From Halovenus carboxidivorans (GTDB taxonomy: Archaea > Halobacteriota > Halobacteria > Halobacteriales > Haloarculaceae): DNA of 64,000 nt. The notes beneath the pieces are model-generated. The model was not told the DNA's origin, searched no databases, and saw nothing but the letters and a program-made list of their open reading frames with translations. Where the stretch lies: NCBI RefSeq assembly GCF_009831575.1, contig NZ_WUUT01000002.1, forward strand, positions 372,001 to 436,000, in the 5' to 3' direction. The translations under genes were made by a program, and so were the position numbers. This document shows, in pieces, positions 28,786 to 41,342 of the stretch (positions are counted from its first letter, which is position 1; every line of letters begins with the position of its first letter).

Positions 28786-29073
28786 CGGTGTGTCGGTATA
28801 CCCCGTCCTCGTTGTAATGTGTCTCCACGATTCCAGAGCACTGAAAATGCGAACCGGTCCGCGGGCCGTCGGGCACCGGGGACCGACGACGGCCTGTCGC
28901 GGCAGAGGCTCCCGCGGAATTCCTCGCGTATATAACTGCTGGCACGAATATGTTCGCCTCGTTTCGGATAACCGGAGACCCGAACAATTCCGGCAGATGT
29001 GCGAGTTGTTCTCATTGAGGTTGAAATCGGCTACACGCCTTCTATACTCCCCTGTTGAACTGTCGTGTGTAGC
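28786..29073. promoter_or_regulatory. divergent regulatory region between narK and the molybdoenzyme operon
   Basis: This 288-nt spacer carries a perfect inverted repeat CGAA-TATG-TTCG at 28944-28955, next to a TATATAAC tract (28929-28936). TTCTATACT at 29040-29048 is a TATA candidate for the rightward transcript, and GTTGTAATG (28811-28819) one for narK. The half-sites CGAA/TTCG with a 4-nt gap recall the cis element reported for anaerobic denitrification promoters in Haloferax; I recall that element only in outline. The remaining bases show nothing else. Confidence 0.5.
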
Positions 29074-29136
29074 ATGACTCCCAACCAGCACGCCACGGAA
29101 ACGGCGCGCGGATCGGAAGGCAGGTGGTTCCCATGA
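29074..29136 (+). CDS. 20-codon leader ORF overlapping the molybdoenzyme start
   Basis: ATG at 29074 opens a 20-residue frame ([20 protein letters not shown]) whose TGA (29134-29136) overlaps the molybdoenzyme ATG (29133-29135) as ATGA. A TATA-like TTCTATACT lies ~29 nt before the mini-ORF start, so the transcript would be leaderless for this peptide and the large subunit would be translated by coupled re-initiation. No match to a known peptide. It may be regulatory rather than a functional protein. Confidence 0.45.
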   Translation: MTPNQHATETARGSEGRWFP

Positions 29137-32100
29137 GCGAGGACCAGCCCGACTCCCAGGGGGGCGAGTTGCCGTTTACCAGACGTGAGATCCTCGGCGG
29201 CGCGGCCAGCACCGCCGGGGCAGTGGGTCTCGGCTATCTCGGGTACAGGCGGTTCTCCGAGGACGACGGTCAGTCCGGCAGCGGCGACGACCAGCCGGAC
29301 CAGCGCGAACCCCTCTCCAATCCCTTCGAGCAGTACCCCAACGAGGACTGGGACCAGCACTACCGCGATGTCTGGGACGTCGACAGCTCCTACTACCTCG
29401 CCTGTCGGCCCAACGACACGCACAACTGCTATCTCGAAGCGAACGTCAAAAACGGGACAGTCACCCGCCTCGGCCCGTCGATGAACTACGGCGACGCGGA
29501 GGATCTGTACGGTAACGGCGTCTCCGATCGCTGGGATCCCCGGGTCTGCAACAAGGGGCTGGCGATGATCGAGCGGTTCTACGGCGAGCGCCGCGTCACC
29601 TCGCCGAAGATCCGGGAGGGGTTCAAACAGTGGGTCGACGACGGCTTCCCGCGGGACGACGACGGCTCGATGCCCGAGGAGTACGCTCGACGCGGGGAAG
29701 ACGGCTGGTACGAGGCCAGTTGGGACGAGGCCTTCGAGTACGCCGCGGAGACGTTCATCGAAATCGCGGATCACTACTCCGGCGAGGAGGCCCAGCAGAT
29801 GCTCCTCGACCAGGGCTACGACGAGCGGGTCGTCGAGGAGATGCAGGGCGTCGGCACCCGGACGATGAAGTTCCGCGGCGGGATGCCGCTTTTGAGCGTC
29901 CTGGGCCTGTTCGGCGAGTACCGCGTGGCCAACTCGATGGCGCTTCTGGACCACCACGTCCGGGACGTGCCCGAGGACGATGCACTGGGCGCGGTCGGCG
30001 GGGACAACTACTCGTTCCACACCGACCTGCCGCCGGGCCACCCGATGGTCACCGGCCAGCAGACCGTCGACTTCGACCTGGCCAACGTCGAGTACGCCGA
30101 CCACATCGTGCTGTCGGGGATGAACTGGACGTGTACGAAGATGGCCGACTCCCACTGGCTGACGGAGGCCCGGATCAAGGGCACCAAGGTCACCGGCGTC
30201 TACACCGACTACAACGCGACGGCCTCGAAGTGCGACGAACTGGTGATCATCCGGCCGGCGACGGACTCGGCGCTGTTTTTGGGCATCGCACAGGAGATCA
30301 TCGCCAACGGCGACTACGACGAGGAGTTCGTCACGTCGAACACGGACCTGCCGCTGCTCGTGCGGATGGACACGGGCGAACACCTGCGCGCGAGCGACGT
30401 GTTCGAGAACTACGACCCCGACGACCTCGAACGCACGCAGGTCGCGCCGGCCTCCGAACACCCGGCGCCGACGACGGTCAACGAGGCCGACCAGTGGATC
30501 ACGCCGGACCAGCGCGAGGAGTGGGACGACTTCGTGGTCTACGATCCCGGCGAGGGCGGCGTCCGCGCGGTCAACCGCGAGGAGGTCGGTGACAACTTCG
30601 AGGGCGACGCCAGCCTCGAAGGGAGCTGGGAACTCGAACTCGCAGACGGCGAAACCGTCGAGGTCCGCCCGGTGTTCGACCTGGTCAAGGAGTACCTGCA
30701 GGAGACCTGGGATCCGCAGTCGACCGCCGAGGTGACCGGCACCGAACCGGAAGCGGTCACGAACATGGCGGCCGAACTCGCCGACAACAAAGAGCAGACG
30801 CTCATCCTCACCGGGATGGGGCCGAACCAGTACTTCAACGGCGACCTGAAGGATCGGGCCGCCTTCCTCGTCGCCAGCCTGACGCGAAACATCGGCACCC
30901 ACAGCGGCAACATCGGCAGCTACGCCGGCAACTACCGCGCCCCGATGTTCAACGGGATCCCCCACTACCACGTCGAGGACCCGTTCAACCCCGAACTCGA
31001 TCCCGAGGCGGACCCGCAGGTGGACCCGCGGCTGACGATGGAGTCGATGCACTTCTACTCGAACATCGACAAGCCGCTGAAGATCGAAGGCGAGTACTTC
31101 CAGGGCGACTCCCACATGAACACGCCCTCGAAGTCGTTCTGGGTCGCCGGCTCGAACTCGATTCTCGGCAACGCCAAGGGGTCGTACAAGATCATCGAGG
31201 ACATGTTGCGGGAGGGTAAGATCGAGGCGTTCTTCTGCAACGAGTGGTGGTGGACGATGACCTGCGAGTACTCCGATATCGTCTTCCCCGTCGACTCCTG
31301 GGCCGAGCAGAACGTCCACGACGTGACCGCCTCGGTGACGAACCCGTTCATGCTGGTCTATCCCGAGACGGGAATCGACCGGATCTACGACACGAAACAC
31401 GACACGCAGGTCTACAAGGGCGTCGCCGAGAAACTCGCGGAGAAACTCGACGAGCCACGCTTCGCCCAGATGTGGGAGTTCATCGACGAAGAGGAGTACC
31501 GGGGCAAGCCGTACCTCCAGCGCATCCTCGACAACTCCAACATGACCAAAGGGTACGATGTCGAGGAACTGATCGAGAAGGCCGAACGCGGCGAACCGGT
31601 GACGATGATGGGGACGACCTATCCCTCGAAGGTCGGCACCCGCCAGATCGAGGACGACCACCCGTGGTTCACACAGACCGGCCGCCTGGAGTTCTTCCGC
31701 GAGGAGGAAATCTGGTCGACGATGGGCGAGAACCTCCCGGTCCACCGGGAGGCCGTCGACGGGACCATCTACCGGCCGAACGTCATCGTCGACGACAGCG
31801 ACCACCCGCTGATCGACCCCGAGACGCCGGAGGATCTCGGCTGGCCCGACGATAAGGTCGACGACCCGAGCGCCCGGCAGGTTCGCAACGAGGTGCTGGG
31901 CACCGACGAACTGCTCGACTCACACCACCCGCTCCAGGACGTCGACCCCGGCTACAAGTACTCCTACATGACGCCGAAGTACCGCCACGGGGCGCACACC
32001 TACTGTAACGCCCTGCCGAACATCGCGGTCTGGTGGGGGCCGTTCGGCGACCGCGACCGGGCCGACAACCGGAAACCGTACTTCGGCGAGGGCTACGTCG

Positions 32101-32669
32101 AGATGAACCCCGAGGACGCCCGCGAAGAGGGCTTCGAGGACGGCGACTACGTCTGGGTCGACGCCGACCCGTCGGATCGGCCGTACCCGAGCGCCGACGG
32201 CGATCCCGAGGAGTACACCCGGGCGCTGATGAGAGTGCGTTACCAGCCCGCGATGCCGCGCGGAGTCACCCGTAGCTGGTTCAACCTCAACCAGTCCAGC
32301 CACGGCACCGTCGAGGCGACGCCCGAGCGCGAGGGACTGGCGAAAAACGAGGAGACCGACTACGTCTCGCTGTACCGCCGCGGCGGCCACCAGTCGATGA
32401 CCCGCTCGTGGCTCCGGCCGACGATTCTGGGCGACAACATGAACCGCAAGGACCTGATGGGCCAGTCCATCGGCCAAGGGTTCGCACCCGACGTCTACTG
32501 CGCCAACGGCGCGCCGCGAGAATCGTTCGTCAAATTCGAGAAGGAAGGCGACGCCGGCGAGGACGGCGACGGGCTGTGGCGGCCCGCAGAACTCGGCCTG
32601 CGTCCCGGCTACGAGACCGACGAGATGGAGCAGTACCTCAACGGCGAGTACATCGAAGGAGGTGAGTAA
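29133..32669 (+). CDS. Tat-exported type II molybdopterin oxidoreductase, catalytic subunit (NarG/NxrA-like)
   Basis: A 1,178-residue catalytic subunit with bis-MGD. A twin-arginine signal ([12 protein letters not shown], 16-27) indicates folded export. The N-terminal Fe-S region has C91, C99 and C139 spaced like the NarG FS0 ligands, but the usual leading His is Cys and the second position is Asp (D95). HTDLPPGHP places the molybdenum-ligand Asp at D298, marking the type II DMSO-reductase branch (nitrate, nitrite, chlorate, selenate, ethylbenzene enzymes). [14 protein letters not shown] is typical of NarG relatives. At ~1,180 residues it is longer than classical haloarchaeal NarG (~980) and nearer to NxrA. 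Its partner NarH-like subunit and NarK suggest nitrate or nitrite as substrate. The start at 29133 is chosen over GTG at 29124. Confidence 0.87.
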
Positions 32670-32671
32670 CC

Positions 32672-33877
32672 ATGCCACAAGTCGAAAACTGGCAACTCGG
32701 CCGCGAGATGGAGTTCCCCTACGACGGGCAGCGACCCGACGACCAGTGGGCGGCCGTCTTCGACCTGAACAAGTGTATCGCCTGTCAGACCTGCACGCTG
32801 GCCTGTAAGACCACCTGGACCCACGGCGAGGGCCAGGAGCACATGTTCTGGAACAACGTCGAGACCAAACCCTACGGCTCACACCCCGTCGGCTGGGACC
32901 AGCGGTTGCTCTCGGAGATGGGGCCCAACGAGTGGAGCGACGACGGCACCTACGAAGGCGAGACCATCTTCGAGGCGATGGGCACCGACTGGGACGCCCG
33001 GGAGAACCACCCCCAGGAGTCCGCGAGCGCCGCCAGCGACATTGCTGGCTTCTTCCCGGGCAGTGAGGACTTCCGCTACCCCAACCTCGGCGAAGACGAG
33101 ATTGCCGGCGACTCCATGGAGTCGATCAACTACTTCGACGAGGAGACCCACCCGGTGTGGTTCTTCTACCTGCCGCGGATCTGCAACCACTGCACGTACG
33201 CGGCCTGTGCCGGGTCCTGTCCCGTGCCGGCGATCTACAAGCGCGAGGAAGACGGCATCGTGTTGATCGACGAGGAGTCCTGTCAGGCCTACCAGCAGTG
33301 CAACGAGGCCTGCCCGTACAAGAAGTCGATCTTCAACGCCGCGGAGGGAATCTCACAGAAGTGTGTCGGCTGCTACCCCAAGACCGAGCAGGGCAAGGCG
33401 CCGCAGTGTTTCGAGAACTGTCTCGGGAAGATCCGGATGCACGGCTACATCAACACGCCCGAGGAGGCCAACGTCGGTGACCCGACCCAACAGCGGGTCA
33501 ACCCCATCGACTACCTCGTTCACGAGAAGGAGATCGCCAAGCCGCTGTACCCGCAGTTCGGGCTGGAGCCGAACGTCTACTACATCCCGCCGATCACCGC
33601 GCCGACCGACTACCTCACCCAGATGTTCGGCCCGGGCGCGGCCGACGCGGTCGAGACCTACCGAGCGGTCCGCAACGGCGACGAACCGGAGATCCGAGGG
33701 CTGTTGCACCTGATCGGCAGTACGGAGTGGTCGCTGACCGGCTTCGAGATCGACGGCGAGGAGGCCGTCGGCTACTACGAGGGCGACGAGGTCGGCCGCG
33801 TCCCGATCGAGGAACCGACCGCCGAGCGGCAACGCTACGACGAGGACGAAGACGTCTACCGACTCGACATCACGTAA
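32672..33877 (+). CDS. four-cluster Fe-S electron-transfer subunit (NxrB/NarH-like)
   Basis: A 401-residue beta subunit. Cys groups follow the four-cluster pattern: CIACQTCTLACK, CNHCTYAACAGSC, the CQAYQQCNEACPYKK region and KCVGCYP with CFENC. The opening PQVENWQLGREM and GQEHMFWNNVETKPYG, and the late PLYPQFGLEPNVYYIPP and QMFGPG, match my recollection of Nitrospira/anammox NxrB closely; haloarchaeal NarH lacks the NWQLGR start. Unlike Nitrospira NxrB, the first cluster keeps its fourth Cys. It follows the catalytic gene by 2 nt, with a strong GGAGGTGA ribosome site (32658-32665). It carries no signal, so it would be exported piggyback with the alpha subunit. Confidence 0.9.
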   Translation: MPQVENWQLGREMEFPYDGQRPDDQWAAVFDLNKCIACQTCTLACKTTWTHGEGQEHMFWNNVETKPYGSHPVGWDQRLLSEMGPNEWSDDGTYEGETIFEAMGTDWDARENHPQESASAASDIAGFFPGSEDFRYPNLGEDEIAGDSMESINYFDEETHPVWFFYLPRICNHCTYAACAGSCPVPAIYKREEDGIVLIDEESCQAYQQCNEACPYKKSIFNAAEGISQKCVGCYPKTEQGKAPQCFENCLGKIRMHGYINTPEEANVGDPTQQRVNPIDYLVHEKEIAKPLYPQFGLEPNVYYIPPITAPTDYLTQMFGPGAADAVETYRAVRNGDEPEIRGLLHLIGSTEWSLTGFEIDGEEAVGYYEGDEVGRVPIEEPTAERQRYDEDEDVYRLDIT

Positions 33878-33879
33878 CG

Positions 33880-34845
33880 ATGAGCGACAACACCATCTTC
33901 GGCAAGTCACGGACGGATTCTGAGGCAGACGAGCCGGATCCAGCCCCGACGGAGGCAGGTCGACAGGAGGCCGAGGGTGTCGTCCCGACGGTCGGCCGGA
34001 GCGAGTCCGGCCTCTCGGAGCACCCCGGCGATACCAACACTGCCTTCCAGCGCGCTCGGCTGTACGGACTGCTCGCGCTGGGGTTCGAGCGCCCCGGCGA
34101 GGACCTCTCGGCGGCCTTCGATGACGACGCCTACTGTACCGATCTGGTCGCGGCCGCCGACGCCCTCGGTGAGGGCGTCGCGGAAGCGGCGGTCGGGGTC
34201 GGGGCCCACGTCACCGACCCGGAGACGCTGTACGACGACTGGGGACCGATGTTCGGCGTCGAGGAGGGCCACAGCGTCTCGCCGTACGAACTCAACTACC
34301 TGCCCGGGCCGCTGGTGACCAACGTCCGTCGGCTGGCGGATATCAACGGCTTCTACAAGGCCTTCGATCTGGAAGCCGCCTCCGACAAGAACGACCGGGG
34401 CGATCACATCTGCTTCCAACTCGAGTTCCTCAGCCACCTCTGCCTGCGGGAGGCACACCTCCGCGAGGGGGGAGACGACAGGGGTGTCAGGATCGTGGGC
34501 GACGCACAGCAGCAGTTCATCGAAGACCACCTCGGGCGCTGGTTCTGGCGGTTCACCGACGAGGTCAGCGCGAGCGGGGACGGCTTCTACGCGGCGCTTG
34601 CGGATGCGCTCGCGGCGTTGCTCGAATCCGAGATCGACCGATTCGGACTCGATCCCGAGTGGGTTCCCGACGATCCCGGCGTCGAGGAATGGAGCGAGGG
34701 AATCTTCGGCGAGTCGGGCCGCGGCTGCGGTGGCTGTGGCATGAACTCCGACGGGAGCGAGATCCCGACCGATCAGTACGACCCCACCGAAGAGCTACGG
34801 GGCGTCGACGGCGGGGACGGACCGGACAGCGTCGACGGCTCGTAG
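33880..34845 (+). CDS. TorD/DmsD/NarJ-family molybdoenzyme chaperone
   Basis: A 321-residue protein with a disordered N-terminus (1-50) and an all-helical TorD-like body (RARLYGLLALGFERP; SPYELNYLP; HICFQLEFLSHLCLREA; FIEDHLGRWFWRF). Such chaperones insert cofactor into the catalytic subunit and proofread its Tat signal before export. It begins 2 nt after the Fe-S subunit, completing a three-gene unit. The C-terminus has a Cys cluster (CGGCGM), which could bind metal. No gamma (haem b) subunit gene follows, unlike NarI or NxrC arrangements. ATG at 33880 is chosen as the first after the upstream stop. Confidence 0.85.
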   Translation: MSDNTIFGKSRTDSEADEPDPAPTEAGRQEAEGVVPTVGRSESGLSEHPGDTNTAFQRARLYGLLALGFERPGEDLSAAFDDDAYCTDLVAAADALGEGVAEAAVGVGAHVTDPETLYDDWGPMFGVEEGHSVSPYELNYLPGPLVTNVRRLADINGFYKAFDLEAASDKNDRGDHICFQLEFLSHLCLREAHLREGGDDRGVRIVGDAQQQFIEDHLGRWFWRFTDEVSASGDGFYAALADALAALLESEIDRFGLDPEWVPDDPGVEEWSEGIFGESGRGCGGCGMNSDGSEIPTDQYDPTEELRGVDGGDGPDSVDGS

Positions 34846-34921: not shown

Positions 34922-37843
34922 ATGACCGAAACCGAACCGACCGCAGCGAGGGGGTCGTCCGTCCCCGAACCGGTGCTCCGGGCGGGGTTACAGGGCCGGA
35001 CGGACGAGGCCGTCATCGGACTGACAGCCGACGGGACCGTGAGTTCGTGGTCGGCGGGCGCACGGGCGCTGACTGGCTCCCGCGTGGCCGACGCGGAAGG
35101 AACGCCGGTGTCGTCGGTACTCCCCGGGCTGTTTCCCGACCGGAGTTCCCTCGACACCGCTCTCGAAACGGCCGGTGCGGACGGCAGGGCCGTGGTCGAG
35201 GGGTGGTGTCGGCGTGACTCGGGAGAGAACTTCTGGGCGTCCGGGGTGATGACGGCCGTCGAGGACGGTGAGGGGTTCGCGCTCCTGCTCCGGGACTGTA
35301 CGGAACAGAGACAGACCGCCGGTGAGCGGAAACTGCTCGCGGACGTAACTCGACGCATCGCGCAGGCCGACTCGTATATCGAGGGGATCCGGACGGCTAT
35401 CGTCGAGGTGTGTGACCACACCGAGTGGGCCTACGGGGAGGCATGGGCTCCCGCAGAGGGAGACGACCGTCTCGAATACGTCACCGGGCACGCTGCGGAT
35501 CGGACCCTCGAACCGTTTCTCGACGAGAGCGAAGCGGTGACGTTCGGTTACGGGGAAGGACTCCCGGGCCGCGTGTACGCGTCGGGCGAGTCGGAGTGGA
35601 TTCCGGATACGTCGGACCAGCCGCGGGACGTGTTCCGCCGGACGGCGCTGGCCGAGGAGGTCGGTCTCCGGGCGGCCCTGGGGGTGCCGATCACCACGGA
35701 GGACGGCGTCGTGGCCGTGTTGACGTTTTTCCTGCGGGATCACCGGGACCCCGACGACAGCCTGGCCTCGGTCGTCAGCGCGGTCGCGGCGGATCTCGGC
35801 GGCCTCGTCGCGCGGATGCAGACCGAGGAGGAACTCGACCGCGAGCGGGCGTTGCTCGGGCGGGTCTTCACGACGAGTCCGGTCGGATTGATCGTGACCG
35901 ATACCGACGGGGAGATCGTTCGGTCGAACCTGCAGGCGTCGGAGATCCTCTGTGGCGGCGAGAGCTCCCTCGTCGGGCGGACGTTCGACGGCCTCGACGG
36001 GGAGTTTCTGCATCCGGACGGATCCGCGGTCGACCCGGAGGAGTTCCCGGTTGCACGCGCGCTCGATACCGGGGCGACTGTCGGAGATATGGAGGTCGAG
36101 CTACGGGACGAGGACGGAGAGAGCCGATGGGTATTGTTGAGTGCGACCCCGATTCACGGCGATGGCGGCGATGTCGAACGGGTCACGGTGGTCGTCGAGG
36201 ACATCACGACCAGACGGGAACGCGAGCAGTCCCTGCGTGCGTTCCGGGAGGCGATCGAACAGGCCGGCCACTCGATTTACTTCACCGACAGCGACGGGAC
36301 AATCGAGTACGTCAACCCGACCTTCGAGGAGGTGACCGGGTACAGCGCCGAGGAGGCAGTCGGGAGGACGCCACACATTCTCAACTCCGGCGAACACGAC
36401 GAACAGTTCTTCGCGGAACTCTGGGAGACGATCCAGGCCGGGGAGGTCTGGACGGGCGAGGTGACGAACGAACACAAGTCCGGAGACAGATACGTCGTCA
36501 ACCAGACGATCGCGCCGATCACCGACGAGACCGGCGGCATCGAGCGATTCGTCGCGATCAACGACGACATCACCGAGCAGAAACGCCGCGAGCAGACGGT
36601 TCGTCGACAGCGCAACTCACTCCAGCGGATCCGGCAGATCATCGAGAGTCTTCGCCCGATCAACCGGGAGTTGACGCGGGCCGGCACGCGTCAGGAGATC
36701 GACCAGGTTATCTGCGAGCAGTTGGCCGCCTCCGACGCGTACCTGTTCGCCTGGATCGGCGATCACAACCAGGCCACCGAGGAGATCACGCCGAGAGAGT
36801 GGGCCGGTGTCGAATCGGAGTTCGTGCAGGATCTCGATCTGACGCTCGACGACGCCGAACTCGGGACGAACCCGTTTCAGCAGGCCGTCACGAGCAGCGA
36901 GATCCAGGCGATCCAGGAGGTGCCGACCGACCCCGCCGGCCAGGACCGCCGCGACCGTGCCATCGAGTACGGATTCCAGTCGGTCGCGGCCATTCCGATC
37001 ACCTACGGGGAGACGGTGCTCGGGATCATCGGCGTGTACTCCGCTCGCCCGGACGCCTTCGACCGGTACGAGCAGGGGCTGTTACGCGAACTCGGCGAGC
37101 GGATCGGGCACGCGATCAACGCCGCGGAGAACAAGCAACTGCTGCACACCGACACCGTCGTCGAGTTGGAGTTCGAGATCGGTGTCGCGGACTCCCCGCT
37201 CGTCTCGGTGACCGAGCAACTGGACTGTCGGCTGTCACTGAACAACCTGACCCCGACGACGGAGGCCGGCTATCTCTGTTACGTCGACGTCGACGGTGTC
37301 GCCCCGGAGGAACTCCTGGACATCGTCGGGTCGGCCCCCAGCGTCGAGAGCACGCGCGTCGTCCGCGCCCGGGGCCAGACCGGAATCGTCGAACTGCGGG
37401 TGAAAACCGGGCCACTGACCGCGCTGTTCGAACACGGAGCGACGATCAGTTCGTTCGAGGCCGCCGACGGAAGCGGGCGACTCGTCGGGGAGACCACGCC
37501 CCAATCCGACGCTCAGTCGATGATCGAGACGCTACAGGGCACCTACCGCGAGACGACGTTCGTCGCGAAGCGAACGCGGACCCAGGAGAGCACGACGCTC
37601 ACGATGACGAAAAACGCCGTCGAGGCGGAACTCACGGACCGCCAGCGGGAGGTGCTCGGGCTGGCGTACCACGGCGGGTACTTCGAGTCGCCCCGCGATT
37701 CGACCGGGGACGAACTCGCGGACGCGTTGGGCATTAGCTCGCCGACCTTCTACCAGCACGTCCGGAAAGCCATCCGAAAGATCCTCGCTCTCCTCATCGA
37801 GAACGAACAACTCGAACCGACTCAATCCCCCGTCAGCCCCTGA
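34922..37843 (+). CDS. PAS/GAF multi-sensor regulator with bacterio-opsin-activator HTH_10 output
   Basis: A 973-residue cytosolic protein. Order: PAS (~10-130), GAF (~140-290), PAS (~300-430), PAS (~440-560, FTDSDGTIEYVNPTFEEVTGYSAEE pattern), GAF (~580-720), BAT-associated domain (~745-890) and a C-terminal HTH_10 helix-turn-helix (LTDRQREVLGLAYHGGYF then TGDELADALGISSPTFYQHV, ~905-965). Members of this Bat family integrate redox or light signals and bind DNA directly without phosphotransfer. Its place directly after the molybdoenzyme operon suggests it may tune that operon, but this is inference. No histidine kinase catalytic core is present. Confidence 0.9.
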   Translation: MTETEPTAARGSSVPEPVLRAGLQGRTDEAVIGLTADGTVSSWSAGARALTGSRVADAEGTPVSSVLPGLFPDRSSLDTALETAGADGRAVVEGWCRRDSGENFWASGVMTAVEDGEGFALLLRDCTEQRQTAGERKLLADVTRRIAQADSYIEGIRTAIVEVCDHTEWAYGEAWAPAEGDDRLEYVTGHAADRTLEPFLDESEAVTFGYGEGLPGRVYASGESEWIPDTSDQPRDVFRRTALAEEVGLRAALGVPITTEDGVVAVLTFFLRDHRDPDDSLASVVSAVAADLGGLVARMQTEEELDRERALLGRVFTTSPVGLIVTDTDGEIVRSNLQASEILCGGESSLVGRTFDGLDGEFLHPDGSAVDPEEFPVARALDTGATVGDMEVELRDEDGESRWVLLSATPIHGDGGDVERVTVVVEDITTRREREQSLRAFREAIEQAGHSIYFTDSDGTIEYVNPTFEEVTGYSAEEAVGRTPHILNSGEHDEQFFAELWETIQAGEVWTGEVTNEHKSGDRYVVNQTIAPITDETGGIERFVAINDDITEQKRREQTVRRQRNSLQRIRQIIESLRPINRELTRAGTRQEIDQVICEQLAASDAYLFAWIGDHNQATEEITPREWAGVESEFVQDLDLTLDDAELGTNPFQQAVTSSEIQAIQEVPTDPAGQDRRDRAIEYGFQSVAAIPITYGETVLGIIGVYSARPDAFDRYEQGLLRELGERIGHAINAAENKQLLHTDTVVELEFEIGVADSPLVSVTEQLDCRLSLNNLTPTTEAGYLCYVDVDGVAPEELLDIVGSAPSVESTRVVRARGQTGIVELRVKTGPLTALFEHGATISSFEAADGSGRLVGETTPQSDAQSMIETLQGTYRETTFVAKRTRTQESTTLTMTKNAVEAELTDRQREVLGLAYHGGYFESPRDSTGDELADALGISSPTFYQHVRKAIRKILALLIENEQLEPTQSPVSP

Positions 37844-38091: not shown

Positions 38092-38427
38092 ATGCCCCCC
38101 AAAGAAACCGAAACCTTCGTTCGAACGATCACCGACGACGAGTGTTGTCAGATCCTCTCGGCCATCGAATCGGAGGCAAAGGCGGTCAAAGAGCTATCCG
38201 AGGAGTGTGAAATTCCGCTGTCGACGACCTATCGGAAGGTCAATCGACTGCAGGAGGCCGGCCTGGTCAGAGAGAAGATCAGGCTGAGTAGCTCCGGAAA
38301 CCACACGAGCGTGTACGAACAGGAGTTCGACGGCGCGATGATCACGCTCTCGAACGACGGCGAGTTCGAGGTCGAACTCGTCTCGGAGACGGGACAACCC
38401 AACCGCCACAGGATCACGGCCGACTGA
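38092..38427 (+). CDS. ArsR-like winged-helix transcriptional regulator
   Basis: A 111-residue protein. Helix-turn-helix: DDECCQILSAIESEAKAVKELSEECEIPLSTTYRKVNRLQEAGLV, spanning residues ~16-60, with a recognition helix around STTYRKVNRL. A beta-hairpin wing and a short C-terminal strand region follow. A CC pair (~19-20) and a further Cys near 38 could sense redox, but this is not a known motif. ATG at 38092 is preferred over GTG at 38089 because of a TTCATAAT box ~30 nt upstream. The next gene, a tiny Cys-His protein, begins 10 nt after its stop and is likely co-transcribed. Confidence 0.82.
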   Translation: MPPKETETFVRTITDDECCQILSAIESEAKAVKELSEECEIPLSTTYRKVNRLQEAGLVREKIRLSSSGNHTSVYEQEFDGAMITLSNDGEFEVELVSETGQPNRHRITAD

Positions 38428-38437
38428 CAACGACGGT

Positions 38438-38581
38438 ATGGAAACGTTTCACCTGTACTGCGAGACGTGCGCCTTCGAGCGCGAGATCGACTCCTTAGAG
38501 GACGCGCTGGAGGTCGAAATCGATCACAAGGCCCAGCACGGAAGCGCACACCAGGTCACCATCGAACGACAGGACGGCTAA
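38438..38581 (+). CDS. 47-residue CxxC/His microprotein
   Basis: The ATG at 38438 lies 10 nt after the upstream regulator stop and opens a 47-residue frame: METFHLYCETC (CxxC at 8-11), an acidic helix, then DHKAQHGSAHQVTIE with His residues at 29, 33 and 37. Cys and His spacing would allow a zinc site. Codon usage is normal for the genome. Such short Cys-rich proteins are often missed by gene callers. Function is unknown; co-transcription with the regulator is inferred from spacing. Confidence 0.65.
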   Translation: METFHLYCETCAFEREIDSLEDALEVEIDHKAQHGSAHQVTIERQDG

Positions 38582-38666
38582 TGGACTCGTCGGTGTGACC
38601 CTGCTGGTTCGGCCCCACTTCAACTCCTTCATATTAGCGGACAACCGGTACCGGATCGGAGCGACT

Positions 38667-38689
38667 ACCTCCACATGTGAGGTGAAACG
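38667..38689 (+). promoter_or_regulatory. hairpin sequestering the ribosome-binding site of the DoxX gene
   Basis: GAGGTGA (38679-38685) is a good Shine-Dalgarno 4 nt before the ATG at 38690. ACCTC (38667-38671) is its exact complement over five bases, leaving a 7-nt loop CACATGT. A CATATTA box near 38630 would start the RNA about 10 nt before the hairpin, so nearly all of the leader is this structure. Confidence 0.45.
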
Positions 38690-39238
38690 ATGGCAACGAC
38701 AGAGACGACTGACAGCGTACAGACCCGCCTGCTCGGACGAGAGTTCACCTTCCCCGTCGAAGGGACGTGGCTCGCGTACTGGCTGGTGATGTTCCGACTC
38801 GTCGGTGGGTGGTGGCTGCTACACGCCGGTCTCGACAAGCTAGTCAACTGGCCGTTCGACGCCGGCTGGTTCGTCGGAGGCGCGGCGCAGGGAACGAGCC
38901 TCGGACCGTTCGTGACCCTGTTCAGCGACGGTGCCGCGCTAACCTTTGTCAACATCGCGATCCCGATCGGCCAGACGATGATCGGGCTGGGGCTCATCCT
39001 CGGGGCACTCACCAGGACGGCCGCCTTCTTCGGGGCCTTCCTGATGGTGTTCTTCTACTTCATCAACGGCGAGACCGGCGGCTGGGCACACGGTGTGGTC
39101 ACGGGCGAACTGCTCGGCCTGCTGGTGTTCGGGATGATCGCGACGCTCGGGGCCGGGCGCGTGCTCGGTGTCGACGGCTACCTGATCCGGACGGAGTTCG
39201 TCGACAAGCACCCACGGTTGCGGTATCTCATCGGCTGA
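38690..39238 (+). CDS. DoxX/DoxD-family membrane protein
   Basis: A 182-residue protein with four hydrophobic helices (WLAYWLVMFRLVGGWWLLHAG; ALTFVNIAIPIGQTMIGLGLIL; TAAFFGAFLMVFFYFI; VVTGELLGLLVFGMIATLG). The RxxxGxxxLxxGxxK-like N-terminal pattern (R-LVGGWWLLHAGLDKL) is typical of DoxX. The family includes the small subunit of archaeal thiosulfate:quinone oxidoreductase and several oxidative-stress proteins; the exact role here is unknown. It leads a run with a 96-residue membrane protein and an HTH_10 regulator, all closely spaced. Confidence 0.85.
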   Translation: MATTETTDSVQTRLLGREFTFPVEGTWLAYWLVMFRLVGGWWLLHAGLDKLVNWPFDAGWFVGGAAQGTSLGPFVTLFSDGAALTFVNIAIPIGQTMIGLGLILGALTRTAAFFGAFLMVFFYFINGETGGWAHGVVTGELLGLLVFGMIATLGAGRVLGVDGYLIRTEFVDKHPRLRYLIG

Positions 39239-39248
39239 GGTGATCGAA

Positions 39249-39539
39249 ATGGCAGACAGAACACTTCCAACGAAAGTCGCACAGTACGTCGGCGGCGGAC
39301 TCGTCGTCTTCGGTGTCGTGGTCGTCGGACTCGTCGAGATGATCGCCGGTGCGAGCCATCCGGTCACGGCGGAGGGACAGATCGTCCACGAAGCGCTCGT
39401 CCCCATCGAGATGAGAGCCTATCTCATCCTCGCGGGGCTGGTGATCTGGGGGCTGTACGCGCTCTACCGTGTCGCCGCCGTCGCACCGGTCGGCGCCGCG
39501 GGCCAGCGGCGCAGAGTCGAAACCCGACAGCCAGAGTGA
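39249..39539 (+). CDS. small two-helix membrane protein, partner of DoxX-type gene
   Basis: A 96-residue protein with two membrane helices (QYVGGGLVVFGVVVVGLVEMIAG; RAYLILAGLVIWGLYALYRVA) joined by a short loop (HPVTAEGQIVHE), ending in a basic tail. ATG at 39249 is chosen over GTG at 39240 because GAGGTGA (38-nt-scale view: bases 39237-39243) lies 5 nt upstream as a Shine-Dalgarno. It follows the DoxX gene by 10 nt. I do not recognise a named family; the pairing suggests a small membrane complex. Confidence 0.75.
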   Translation: MADRTLPTKVAQYVGGGLVVFGVVVVGLVEMIAGASHPVTAEGQIVHEALVPIEMRAYLILAGLVIWGLYALYRVAAVAPVGAAGQRRRVETRQPE

Positions 39540-39573: not shown

Positions 39574-39930
39574 ATGACACAGACAACGACGCCCGAATCC
39601 CTCACGGTCGTGCTGGAGATTCCCGACCGGCAGACACTCGTCGAACTGTTGTCGACGGTCGAGGAGTCGGAGTCGCCAGTCGTGACGAGAGACATCAGAC
39701 GCGCAGATGAGAGCGGGGACGGATACGTCTCCGTCGACCTCGGCGAACTGACGGCGAAACAGAAACAGGCGCTCGAACTCGCGGTCGAGGCCGGTTACTA
39801 CGAGCGGCCCAGAGACGCCGATCTCGGTGAGTTGGGCGACAGACTCGCCATCTCGAAGTCGGCGGTGTCACAGCGGCTCAGGTCCGCCGAGCGAAAACTG
39901 ATCGAGACGGCGATACGGCAGGTTGTCTGA
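39574..39930 (+). CDS. short HTH_10 (bacterio-opsin-activator-type) regulator
   Basis: A 118-residue protein. Residues 1-60 form a small alpha/beta domain (LTVVLEIPDRQTLVELLSTVEE) and ~62-112 the HTH_10 domain (LTAKQKQALELAVEAGYYERP, then LGELGDRLAISKSAVSQRL). It lacks the Cys-rich N-terminal module of its two larger neighbours on the opposite strand, though the HTH sequence (AISKSAVSQRL vs GISKSAVSQRLNAAE) is closely related. It ends 1 nt from the convergent stop at 39932 and is 34 nt after the small membrane gene, so it probably regulates or is co-expressed with the DoxX unit. Confidence 0.85.
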   Translation: MTQTTTPESLTVVLEIPDRQTLVELLSTVEESESPVVTRDIRRADESGDGYVSVDLGELTAKQKQALELAVEAGYYERPRDADLGELGDRLAISKSAVSQRLRSAERKLIETAIRQVV

Positions 39931-39931
39931 G

Positions 39932-40603
39932 TCAGGTCCGCTCTGACTGGCCGAGAAACGCTCTGACGAGTTTCGTCTCGGCGGCGTTGAGTCGCTGTGA
40001 GACGGCGGATTTCGAGATGCCTAACTTCTCGGCGCAGTCGCTCAGATCGGCACTGCGAGGGCTGTCGTAATAGCCGAGTTCCAGCGCCGTTTCGAGCGCC
40101 TCCTGCTGTTTCGCGGTGATCGCACTCACGTCGAGTTCCGTCGTGGCTCCGACGTGTCCGTCTTCGACCAGCCACTCGACAGCGACGGTCGCGCCGACAT
40201 CCCGGAGCGCGTCGACGAGCGCCCGGATTGTCTCACGGGACGGGACCGACACGACGACCGTGATCGCCCCGTCGCTGACGTCCGTGAACTCCGTGAGGCA
40301 GTCGTACTCCTCGAACACCGGACAGATGCAGTGCCCGTCGACGCGGGCCGTTCGGTAGGCCTGTGGCCGATCCTCGTACTCCAGAAGCGTATGACACTCA
40401 CGCTCCGAGTTGGCGGAGCCGGTTCCCCCCTGCTCGTCGGGATCGTACGTGAGCGACTGCGTGATCCGATCCGGCTCGTCCCCGCCGTCGAGCGCGGCGC
40501 AGGCGGCCGCGGGATCCGGACGGACCGCGAGTTGTGCCCGGACTAGCGACTGCTGGCAGTCGACCCGCTGTTCACTCCCCGAGGACCGCTCTGAATGAGC
40601 CAT
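39932..40603 (-). CDS. Cys-rich HTH_10 regulator, NarO/DmsR-like (copy 1)
   Basis: A 223-residue protein. The N-terminal half contains ECHTLLEYEDRP and DGHCICPVFEEYDCLTEF, giving a C-x(n)-CxC-x7-C cluster; then comes a small alpha/beta domain and a C-terminal HTH_10 (ITAKQQEALETALELGYYDSP, KLGISKSAVSQRLNAAE). In Haloferax, NarO and DmsR are regulators of this layout that switch on denitrification and DMSO respiration when oxygen falls, with the Cys cluster as the presumed sensor. The gene lies 5 kb from the molybdoenzyme operon and next to a paralogue, so a role in anaerobic respiration is likely but inferred. Confidence 0.82.
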   Translation of the reverse strand: MAHSERSSGSEQRVDCQQSLVRAQLAVRPDPAAACAALDGGDEPDRITQSLTYDPDEQGGTGSANSERECHTLLEYEDRPQAYRTARVDGHCICPVFEEYDCLTEFTDVSDGAITVVVSVPSRETIRALVDALRDVGATVAVEWLVEDGHVGATTELDVSAITAKQQEALETALELGYYDSPRSADLSDCAEKLGISKSAVSQRLNAAETKLVRAFLGQSERT

Positions 40604-40667
40604 TACACACGTGTACCTACCAGCGCCCCTCGTAAACGCGTGCGGCCGATTCCCAACGAGGTGGTAA

Positions 40668-41342
40668 TCACGTTGGATCGCTGTCAGATATCTCCCCGAG
40701 AAACGCCCTCACGAGCCGCGTTTCGGCGGCGTTTAGACGCTGGGAAACCGCCGATTCGGAGAGTCCGAGGCGTGCGGCGAGGTCGGACAGCGTCGCGCCA
40801 CCCTCGTAGTGGCCAGCGTTGAGGGCCGTTTCGAGGGTGTCACGCTGGGTGTCCGTGATCACGTCGGTGTCGACGGTGATCGTCTCTCCCTCGCCGTCGA
40901 CAGTCGTGATCCAGTCGATCGAGACCGTCGCGGCGACGGTACGGAGGTCGTCGATGAGATCGAACAGTTCGGCTCGACGTGAGGAGACAACTGTCACGAC
41001 GAGCGTCCCGGAGCGGACCGCTTCGAGCCGCGTAAGACAGCTGTGTGCTTTCAAAACCGGGCAGATACAGCCGTCCGTCGGTCGGGCGGAGATGTACGTA
41101 TCCCCCCCGTCACCGAGGTGGGTGTGACACCTCCCGCACCGTACCGGGTCACAGCGCCCTGATTCGTCGTGTTCGGGACACGAAGGCGGAATCTTCAGTT
41201 CGTGGGCGATCACCGCCGAATCGGTGTCGCCACTGAGGAGTACGCACGGAGCGTCCTGGTCGGGTTCGACCGCCAGTTTCGCGCGGAACAGCGGTGAGTC
41301 GTCCCTTCCGTCCGACCCTCCCGCCCGTTTGGACTGTGCCAT
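40668..41342 (-). CDS. Cys-rich HTH_10 regulator, NarO/DmsR-like (copy 2)
   Basis: A 224-residue paralogue of the neighbouring gene. It has more Cys in the N-terminal half: CPEHDESGRCDPVRCGRCHTHLG and TDGCICPVLKAHSCLTRLEAV. The shared core is CHT, DG-x-CICPV and a final Cys followed by LT. The C-terminus is HTH_10 (LGLSESAVSQRLNAAETRLVRAFLG), nearly the same recognition helix as copy 1, so the two may compete for the same sites. ATG at 41342 is preferred; a GTG immediately before (41343-41345) is also possible. Spacing of 64 nt to copy 1 allows co-transcription. Confidence 0.82.
   Translation of the reverse strand: MAQSKRAGGSDGRDDSPLFRAKLAVEPDQDAPCVLLSGDTDSAVIAHELKIPPSCPEHDESGRCDPVRCGRCHTHLGDGGDTYISARPTDGCICPVLKAHSCLTRLEAVRSGTLVVTVVSSRRAELFDLIDDLRTVAATVSIDWITTVDGEGETITVDTDVITDTQRDTLETALNAGHYEGGATLSDLAARLGLSESAVSQRLNAAETRLVRAFLGEISDSDPT

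Follow-up and report, generated by a model that had tools for sequence, protein, structure and literature searches.

The haloarchaeal regulators NarO and DmsR act by oxygen-dependent activation for which every one of their cysteines is required, and NarO itself was reportedly defined by the motif C-Xn-CxC-x7-C. One account of haloarchaeal denitrification gives NarO as the only described regulator of the process (PMC11218638). The DNA considered here, referred to as the window, is a stretch of 64,000 nucleotides from Halovenus carboxidivorans in which three HTH_10 genes follow one another, a short one on the forward strand and two long ones, copy 1 and copy 2, on the reverse strand. The long proteins share with NarO of Haloferax volcanii and DmsR of Halobacterium the order of their domains, a similar length, N-terminal cysteines and the CxC element, and copy 1 scores over the cut-off for the DmsR_N domain. 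They differ from the stand-ins compared for those two proteins in a fifth conserved cysteine, in a recognition helix of the form SAxSQRL instead of STxxEHL and in lying on a separate, well supported branch. The Bat-type regulators (PAS/GAF/BAT/HTH_10) resemble copy 1 in joining HTH_10 to a related preceding domain, but the pair has no PAS/GAF match and carries a cysteine domain in its place. A further comparison is offered by the bacterioopsin-activator-family proteins of haloarchaeal Psr operons and by HMUK_RS15815 of H. mukohataei (row L029). The latter is a five-cysteine protein that the tree places with the pair and whose gene lies upstream of a molybdoenzyme-DsrO-NrfD-TorD operon; unlike the pair it belongs to another sub-branch, and regulators of that type lacked a short partner within 2 kb at all 22 loci.

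The tandem pair and its branch

Copy 1 (39932-40603, reverse strand) is a five-cysteine, DmsR-like HTH_10 regulator of 223 residues, and its tandem paralogue copy 2 (40668-41342, reverse strand) has 224 residues counted from its ATG, or 225 if a GTG three bases 5' of it is the start. The 64 bases between them (40604-40667, reverse strand), either the copy 1 promoter or a gap within an operon, contain no CGAAN4TTCG. The source genome, 3.25 Mb in 10 contigs, has 21 HTH_10 matches in all, and the three considered here all pass the HTH_10 cut-off (PF04967; 23.1 bits), with 66.5 bits for copy 1, 37.7 for copy 2 and 70.0 for the short protein. For DmsR_N (PF24277; cut-off 27) copy 1 is over the cut-off at 46.2 bits and copy 2 just under it at 25.6, and the BAT score of copy 1 (19.8 bits) is under the cut-off of 25.8. 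The initial annotation described the long proteins as paralogues sharing C-Xn-CxC-x7-C and nearly identical HTH segments, and this is borne out: the motif is present in both (DGHCICPVFEEYDC and DGCICPVLKAHSC), the HTH segments are near-identical (SKSAVSQRLNAAE and SESAVSQRLNAAE), and the proteins are 45% identical (E 5.9e-41) and fall into a joint within-genus group. Copy 2 is also, as had been stated, richer in N-terminal cysteines, C55, C64 and C69 being extra. What did not stand was the count of four in the cluster, as the conserved set numbers five: C35, C70, C92, C94 and C102 in copy 1, which has C16 and C190 in addition, and C33, C72, C92, C94 and C102 in copy 2.

Relatives were searched for in 146 genomes of the family and a tree of 95 rows was then built, the rows of trees and alignments being those that resembled copy 1 or copy 2; a simple script called the genes of the relatives' genomes, and three homologues (L038, L041 and L042) were added from reading frames. 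H. volcanii NarO and Halobacterium DmsR were represented in the trees by stand-ins and not by the named proteins, namely by narG-linked genes and by high DmsR_N scorers. Among 15 canonical narG stretches, only 6 yielded an HTH_10 gene of the DmsR-like kind. The DmsR-like proteins split in two (SH-aLRT 96), with the six genes linked to canonical narG (L103, L106, L107, L108, L109 and L111) and this genome's two top DmsR_N proteins (158.6 and 127.2 bits) on the NarO side and the pair and the short proteins on the other. The trees were rebuilt without the cysteine columns to exclude circularity of the fifth-cysteine trait, and the same split was obtained with a support of 100 from the C-terminal columns after the last cysteine, both without and with 25 added class-wide rows, which were the best matches to copy 1, trimmed to their last 235 residues. 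The initial annotation had aligned the pair with the NarO/DmsR group, and a phylogeny with stand-ins that places both copies outside that group speaks against this. On sequence grounds the pair almost certainly lies on a distinct five-cysteine branch whose sister is that of NarO and DmsR. No mention of such a branch was found in the open-licence papers searched, so that a published description elsewhere is possible. The Pfam DmsR_N model, with its cut-off of 27, accepts five-cysteine proteins too: four of them other than the pair scored between 28.5 and 37.7 bits, compared with 120.6-157.7 bits for four NarO-branch proteins.

Conservation of the cysteines was counted in copy 1 numbering over 41 NarO-branch and 44 pair-branch proteins, excluding rows shorter than 165 residues and four distant HTH_10 rows. 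The C70 column (C70/C72) separates the branches completely, with cysteine in none of the 41 and all of the 44, and since all 25 further class-wide rows also have the fifth cysteine the overall figures are 69/69 against 0/41; on the cysteine-free C-terminal trees, with or without the class-wide rows, the trait requires one change. Cysteine at the C35 column was found in 38/41 NarO-branch and 43/44 pair-branch proteins, at C92 in every protein of both sets (41/41 and 44/44), at C94 in 41/41 and 35/44, and at C102 in 23/41 and 41/44. The pair's branch thus keeps the last cysteine of CxC-x7-C better than the NarO branch does, and because only 23 of 41 NarO-branch rows have it, C-Xn-CxC-x7-C does not define the NarO/DmsR group. 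The recognition helix follows the same division: copy 1 positions 203-204 read EH or GH in 41/41 NarO-branch rows and QR, KR, RR, HR or NR in 69/69 rows of the pair's branch, and both copies carry QR, so that neither has the STxxEHL-type helix of the NarO/DmsR group. The copy 1 stretch SAVSQRLNAAETKL recurs letter for letter in two relatives (L043 and L056). The near-identity of the two recognition helices is therefore true of the pair but not particular to it, and as the consensus of an entire branch it is scarcely informative on the two copies themselves, although the identical helix cores make common DNA sites for the pair plausible.

Both copies fall among 10 rows that form a within-genus group (support 96/98, and 100/100 in a second tree), which makes the duplication a young one. 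As each other's closest relatives they received 52/74 and then 76/0, and the starred set of three includes L044 (genome G097). The extra cysteines of copy 2 (C55, C64 and C69) are matched by cysteines of the SHR40 homologue (CFDRTAEGECSQETCGEC compared with CPEHDESGRCDPVRCGRC), so that to judge from the alignment they probably predate the duplication instead of forming a new sensor. Tandem five-cysteine pairs also occur in G215, G279 and G189, all of one family, where the first members cluster together and the second members likewise, in G146 and G151 of another family, and in other parts of the five-cysteine branch in G005 and G001; the NarO branch has tandem pairs of its own in G092-G094. 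A single ancient tandem pair common to several families was considered and rejected, the f3 and f2 pairs lying elsewhere in the tree.

It could be argued that copy 2 is a duplicate in decay or one that has become specialised, with its sensor kept but its DNA binding impaired, and that it acts on copy 1 through mixed dimers. Its HTH_10 score (37.7 against 66.5 bits), the loss of PR from the GYYxxPR stretch of HTH_10 and a branch about twice the length of that of copy 1 all fit such a role. However, PR is also missing from 8 of the 43 other family rows of the pair's branch, and copy 2 retains its recognition helix, all five cysteines and a full-length reading frame, which makes an impaired copy 2 unlikely. 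A structure model built from three sequences was weak (pLDDT 63.2, pTM 0.62) and gave no Foldseek match at E <= 0.001, so that a meeting of the five cysteines in space is not supported; a sequence profile search of the PDB gave two weak NapD matches only (E 0.014 and 0.015).

Gene company of the pair and its relatives

The third HTH_10 gene (39574-39930, forward strand) encodes a protein of 118 residues that, as earlier claimed, has no cysteine and is convergent with copy 1, a single base separating the two gene ends. It aligns with copy 1 residues 110-217 and thus retains the HTH and the stretch that precedes it, without the sensor. Upstream of it on the forward strand are genes for a DoxX-family membrane protein of 182 residues (38690-39238; DoxX 26.7 bits, cut-off 23.6), which is unique in its own genome (the sole match being itself, E 1e-5), and for a small membrane-type protein of 99 residues with no Pfam match (39240-39539). 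The run from DoxX through the membrane protein to the short gene has gaps of 1 and 34 bases. A small winged-HTH gene occupies 38092-38427, and its relatives were seen near 5 of 22 NarO-branch loci, at five other close five-cysteine loci and at 2 of 20 random loci.

The surroundings of the nearest relatives were compared in a close set of 39 loci (the window, L016, L038-L054 and L244-L263). A short, sensor-less HTH_10 gene was found within 2 kb of the long gene at 12 of the 39, the window included, and at none of the 22 other five-cysteine loci, 26 NarO-branch loci or 20 random loci compared. This limit omits one of the 22, L179 in G097, where the short gene is 4 kb from the five-cysteine gene, and the count of 12 omits L246, where the long partner has CxR instead of CxC. 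In G097 the short HTH_10 gene closes a molybdoenzyme operon, overlapping the chaperone gene by 4 bases, and the operon and its short gene are divergent from the five-cysteine regulator. DoxX together with a membrane-type protein of 94-100 residues was found near the regulator at 6 of the 39 close loci and at none of 20 random ones; the six, from the window (G000), G122, G215, G357, G326 and G256, represent three families, and in each genome the regulator-linked DoxX is the best match to that of the window. In two genomes of the same genus (G098 and G099) a short HTH_10 gene directly follows DoxX on the same strand, and the copy-1-like gene sits on a different contig. Weighing against a regulatory link, DoxX and its partner were seen in G146 and G005 with about 7 kb of surroundings free of any HTH_10 match, and by the gene-calling script 27 of the 39 close loci have no short partner and 33 have no DoxX. 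Because the loci cluster by lineage, none of these counts represents independent events. FixABCX-like genes were found near 7 of 38 relatives, and two of the four were seen at one random locus. At nine close loci of three families (L047, L048, L050-L052, L248, L249, L257 and L260) the five-cysteine gene is near genes for a conserved protein of about 477 residues and an ABC-type permease, both absent from the 20 random loci; seven of the nine have the short HTH_10 gene.

Taken together, this gene company is consistent with the pair being regulators of a redox or thiol type that control the operon of DoxX, the membrane protein and the short protein, with the short protein as a competitor, a reading to which we assign a probability of roughly 0.5. 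Of its parts, a role of the DoxX operon as the pair's target would have about an even chance, and a role of the short protein as a feedback competitor may be regarded as possible, if rather less probable than that.

A comparison of the DoxX promoters of the window (38428-38700), L054, L244, L251, L252 and L254 yielded a loose CTTnAAnnnCTGTA element in 5 of the 6, compared with 2 of 281 controls, and the element is degenerate in the window. No exact match to CTTNAANNNCTGTA was found in this genome, whereas the reversed control has three; this and the degenerate copy in the window weigh against the pair as regulators of the DoxX operon. The element may be core promoter and is not claimed as a binding site. 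In L054 and L251 an inverted repeat, CACC[TC]GTAnGGTGA, stands just before the DoxX start codon and was seen in none of 281 controls.

The molybdoenzyme operon and the palindrome before it

On the forward strand the window also contains an operon for a molybdoenzyme (29133-34845) that is nitrite-oxidoreductase-like by its best PDB match, with genes for the alpha subunit (29133-32669), the beta subunit (32672-33877) and a chaperone (33880-34845), directly followed by the gene for a PAS/GAF/BAT/HTH_10 regulator (34922-37843, forward strand) that is a rival candidate for the local regulator. The alpha and beta subunits, labelled 'nitrate reductase', match NxrA and NxrB (7b04) best, with 708.9 and 322.3 bits, and NarG and NarH with 96.5 and 162.3 bits; a canonical haloarchaeal NarG scored 435.4 and 179.4 bits in the same comparison. 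Identity between the window enzyme and canonical NarG is 35-37% over about 600 residues, and enzymes of the same type are encoded by a second copy in the same genome (67%), by G129 (65%) and by a plasmid of Natronococcus occultus (63%). The second copy (G000:C1:1001057-1004605; L100) lies beside universal-stress-type genes. On the N. occultus plasmid (NC_019976.1; L270:9001-12192) tblastn matches the alpha subunit, for which there is no gene in the PLSDB table, a table that is incomplete and omits pseudogenes; the beta subunit and the chaperone are listed in it.

One alternative is that the pair serves this operon through another, unrecognised site, as distant five-cysteine relatives probably do with theirs. 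Of 41 family-set loci from the wider five-cysteine branch, 18 have a catalytic molybdoenzyme subunit nearby, compared with none of 20 random loci. The 18 comprise the H. mukohataei plasmid locus, 16 of the 20 distant loci L163-L182 and a single one of the 20 loci nearest to the pair, and PMC6176080 places bacterioopsin-activator-family proteins in Psr operons. For comparison, a catalytic subunit was near 8 of 22 NarO-branch loci, in addition to the 6 of 6 that had been chosen for narG. Among close relatives of the pair, however, the association amounts to that 1 of 20 in the family, a locus (L055) of the distant five-cysteine type, and 0 of 20 in the class, where two loci have Fe-S and NrfD subunits. 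The wider branch is thus tied to molybdoenzymes and the pair's sub-branch hardly so, despite the operon 5-10 kb away in the window. In addition, all six same-genus genomes with a copy-1-like gene (E <1e-40), two of them less than 85% complete, gave no enzyme match at 1e-60, and the PAS/GAF/BAT regulator stands directly after the operon. Control of the operon by the pair through such a site is accordingly unlikely, and the operon is a doubtful candidate for a direct target of the pair.

Searches for a binding site of the five-cysteine branch found none, which also counts against the reading of the pair as regulators of the DoxX operon. With exact 5-base half-sites and gaps of 0-12, no pattern was common to four or more of 18 five-cysteine molybdoenzyme loci (the maxima of 30 shuffles being 2-3), and half-sites of 4 bases, sought in the promoters of 18 molybdoenzymes and 18 regulators, gave best patterns in 5 and 4 loci, equal to the maxima of 40 shuffles. 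In six narG promoters one half-site pattern occurred in 4, with a shuffle maximum of 3, but these came from a single genus.

Between a narK-like gene and the operon lies the palindrome CGAATATGTTCG (28945-28956), whose letters are those of the H. mediterranei nirK promoter motif (PMC10062603). That paper reports the motif in H. mediterranei and yet no NarO homologue there, and no significant effect of mutating the motif in the nar promoter of that species. CGAAN4TTCG is present in 9 of 15 canonical narG promoters, including 3 of the 6 with linked NarO-like genes, as against 5 of 280 control promoters. It was found in none of the 18 molybdoenzyme and none of the 18 regulator promoters of the wider five-cysteine branch, and it does not occur upstream of copy 1, copy 2 or DoxX. 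The window has six loose CGAAN4TTCG sites where a mean of 2.5 is expected, a number reached by 5 of 100 shuffles, and only the one at 28945 fits CGAAYATRTTCG, which has four matches genome-wide, compared with none for its reversed control. An exact CGAACATATTCG was seen at G000:C1:663737 (L093:6738), between glycerol kinase-like and glycerol-3-phosphate dehydrogenase-like genes.

The homologous operon of G129 (65% identity) has CGAACATGTTCG at 183-194 bases upstream, compared with 177-188 in the window. That genome, which is 87% complete, gave no match to copy 2 at 1e-10; what matches copy 1 best there is a protein of NarO type whose helix reads EHL, and the ten HTH_10 matches examined include no five-cysteine protein. 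The homologous operon of N. occultus has a gene for an EHL-type regulator 2 kb away. The palindrome was not found at the N. occultus operon, and CGAAN4TTCG was not found in the 500 bases around the start of the second operon copy, both of which count against a simple NarO reading, as do the findings of PMC10062603 in H. mediterranei. Action of the pair at the palindrome, which the initial annotation placed at 28944, is not supported in view of the 0 of 36 five-cysteine-branch promoters, the 9 of 15 narG promoters and the retention in G129; judged from these distributions, a regulator of the NarO/DmsR branch is a more likely reader of the palindrome than the pair. The proposal that the two copies are NarO/DmsR-type oxygen regulators acting here on narK and the molybdoenzyme operon can draw on the C-Xn-CxC-x7-C of both copies, the DmsR_N score of copy 1, the proximity of the operon and the published denitrification motif, but in view of the separate branch, the fifth cysteine, the different recognition helix, these promoter counts, the regulators seen in G129 and N. 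occultus and two stronger DmsR_N proteins in the same genome it is improbable.

A possible circuit and its meaning

If the pair regulates the adjacent operon of DoxX, the membrane protein and the short protein, the five cysteines would give the N-terminal domain a switch that responds to redox state, thiols or metal, and the two copies would bind a common site through their identical helix core. Two sensors of unequal cysteine content could then make one operon responsive over a wider range of conditions. The short protein would be produced together with the rest of the operon and would compete for the sites or mix with the long proteins; because it keeps the DNA-binding half without the sensor, either competition or mixed dimers would give negative feedback. 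The whole would be a self-limiting redox circuit in which two five-cysteine activators are restrained by a sensor-less brake from the operon that they switch on, a tentative proposal with less in its favour than the feedback role of the short protein taken singly. In varied arrangements, and accompanied by either DoxX or a molybdoenzyme operon, the parts of this circuit recur in several haloarchaeal families.

The five-cysteine sister branch, with its fully conserved extra cysteine, its own recognition helix and its recurring partners, divides proteins that are now filed jointly under Pfam DmsR_N, and a consequence is that the CxC-x7-C motif is by itself unfit for naming NarO homologues. The contrast between the branches raises the question of whether the fifth cysteine makes for a different signal or cofactor. 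If the proposal is true, the sensor-less partner would be a simple example of feedback exerted by a reduced version of a regulator.
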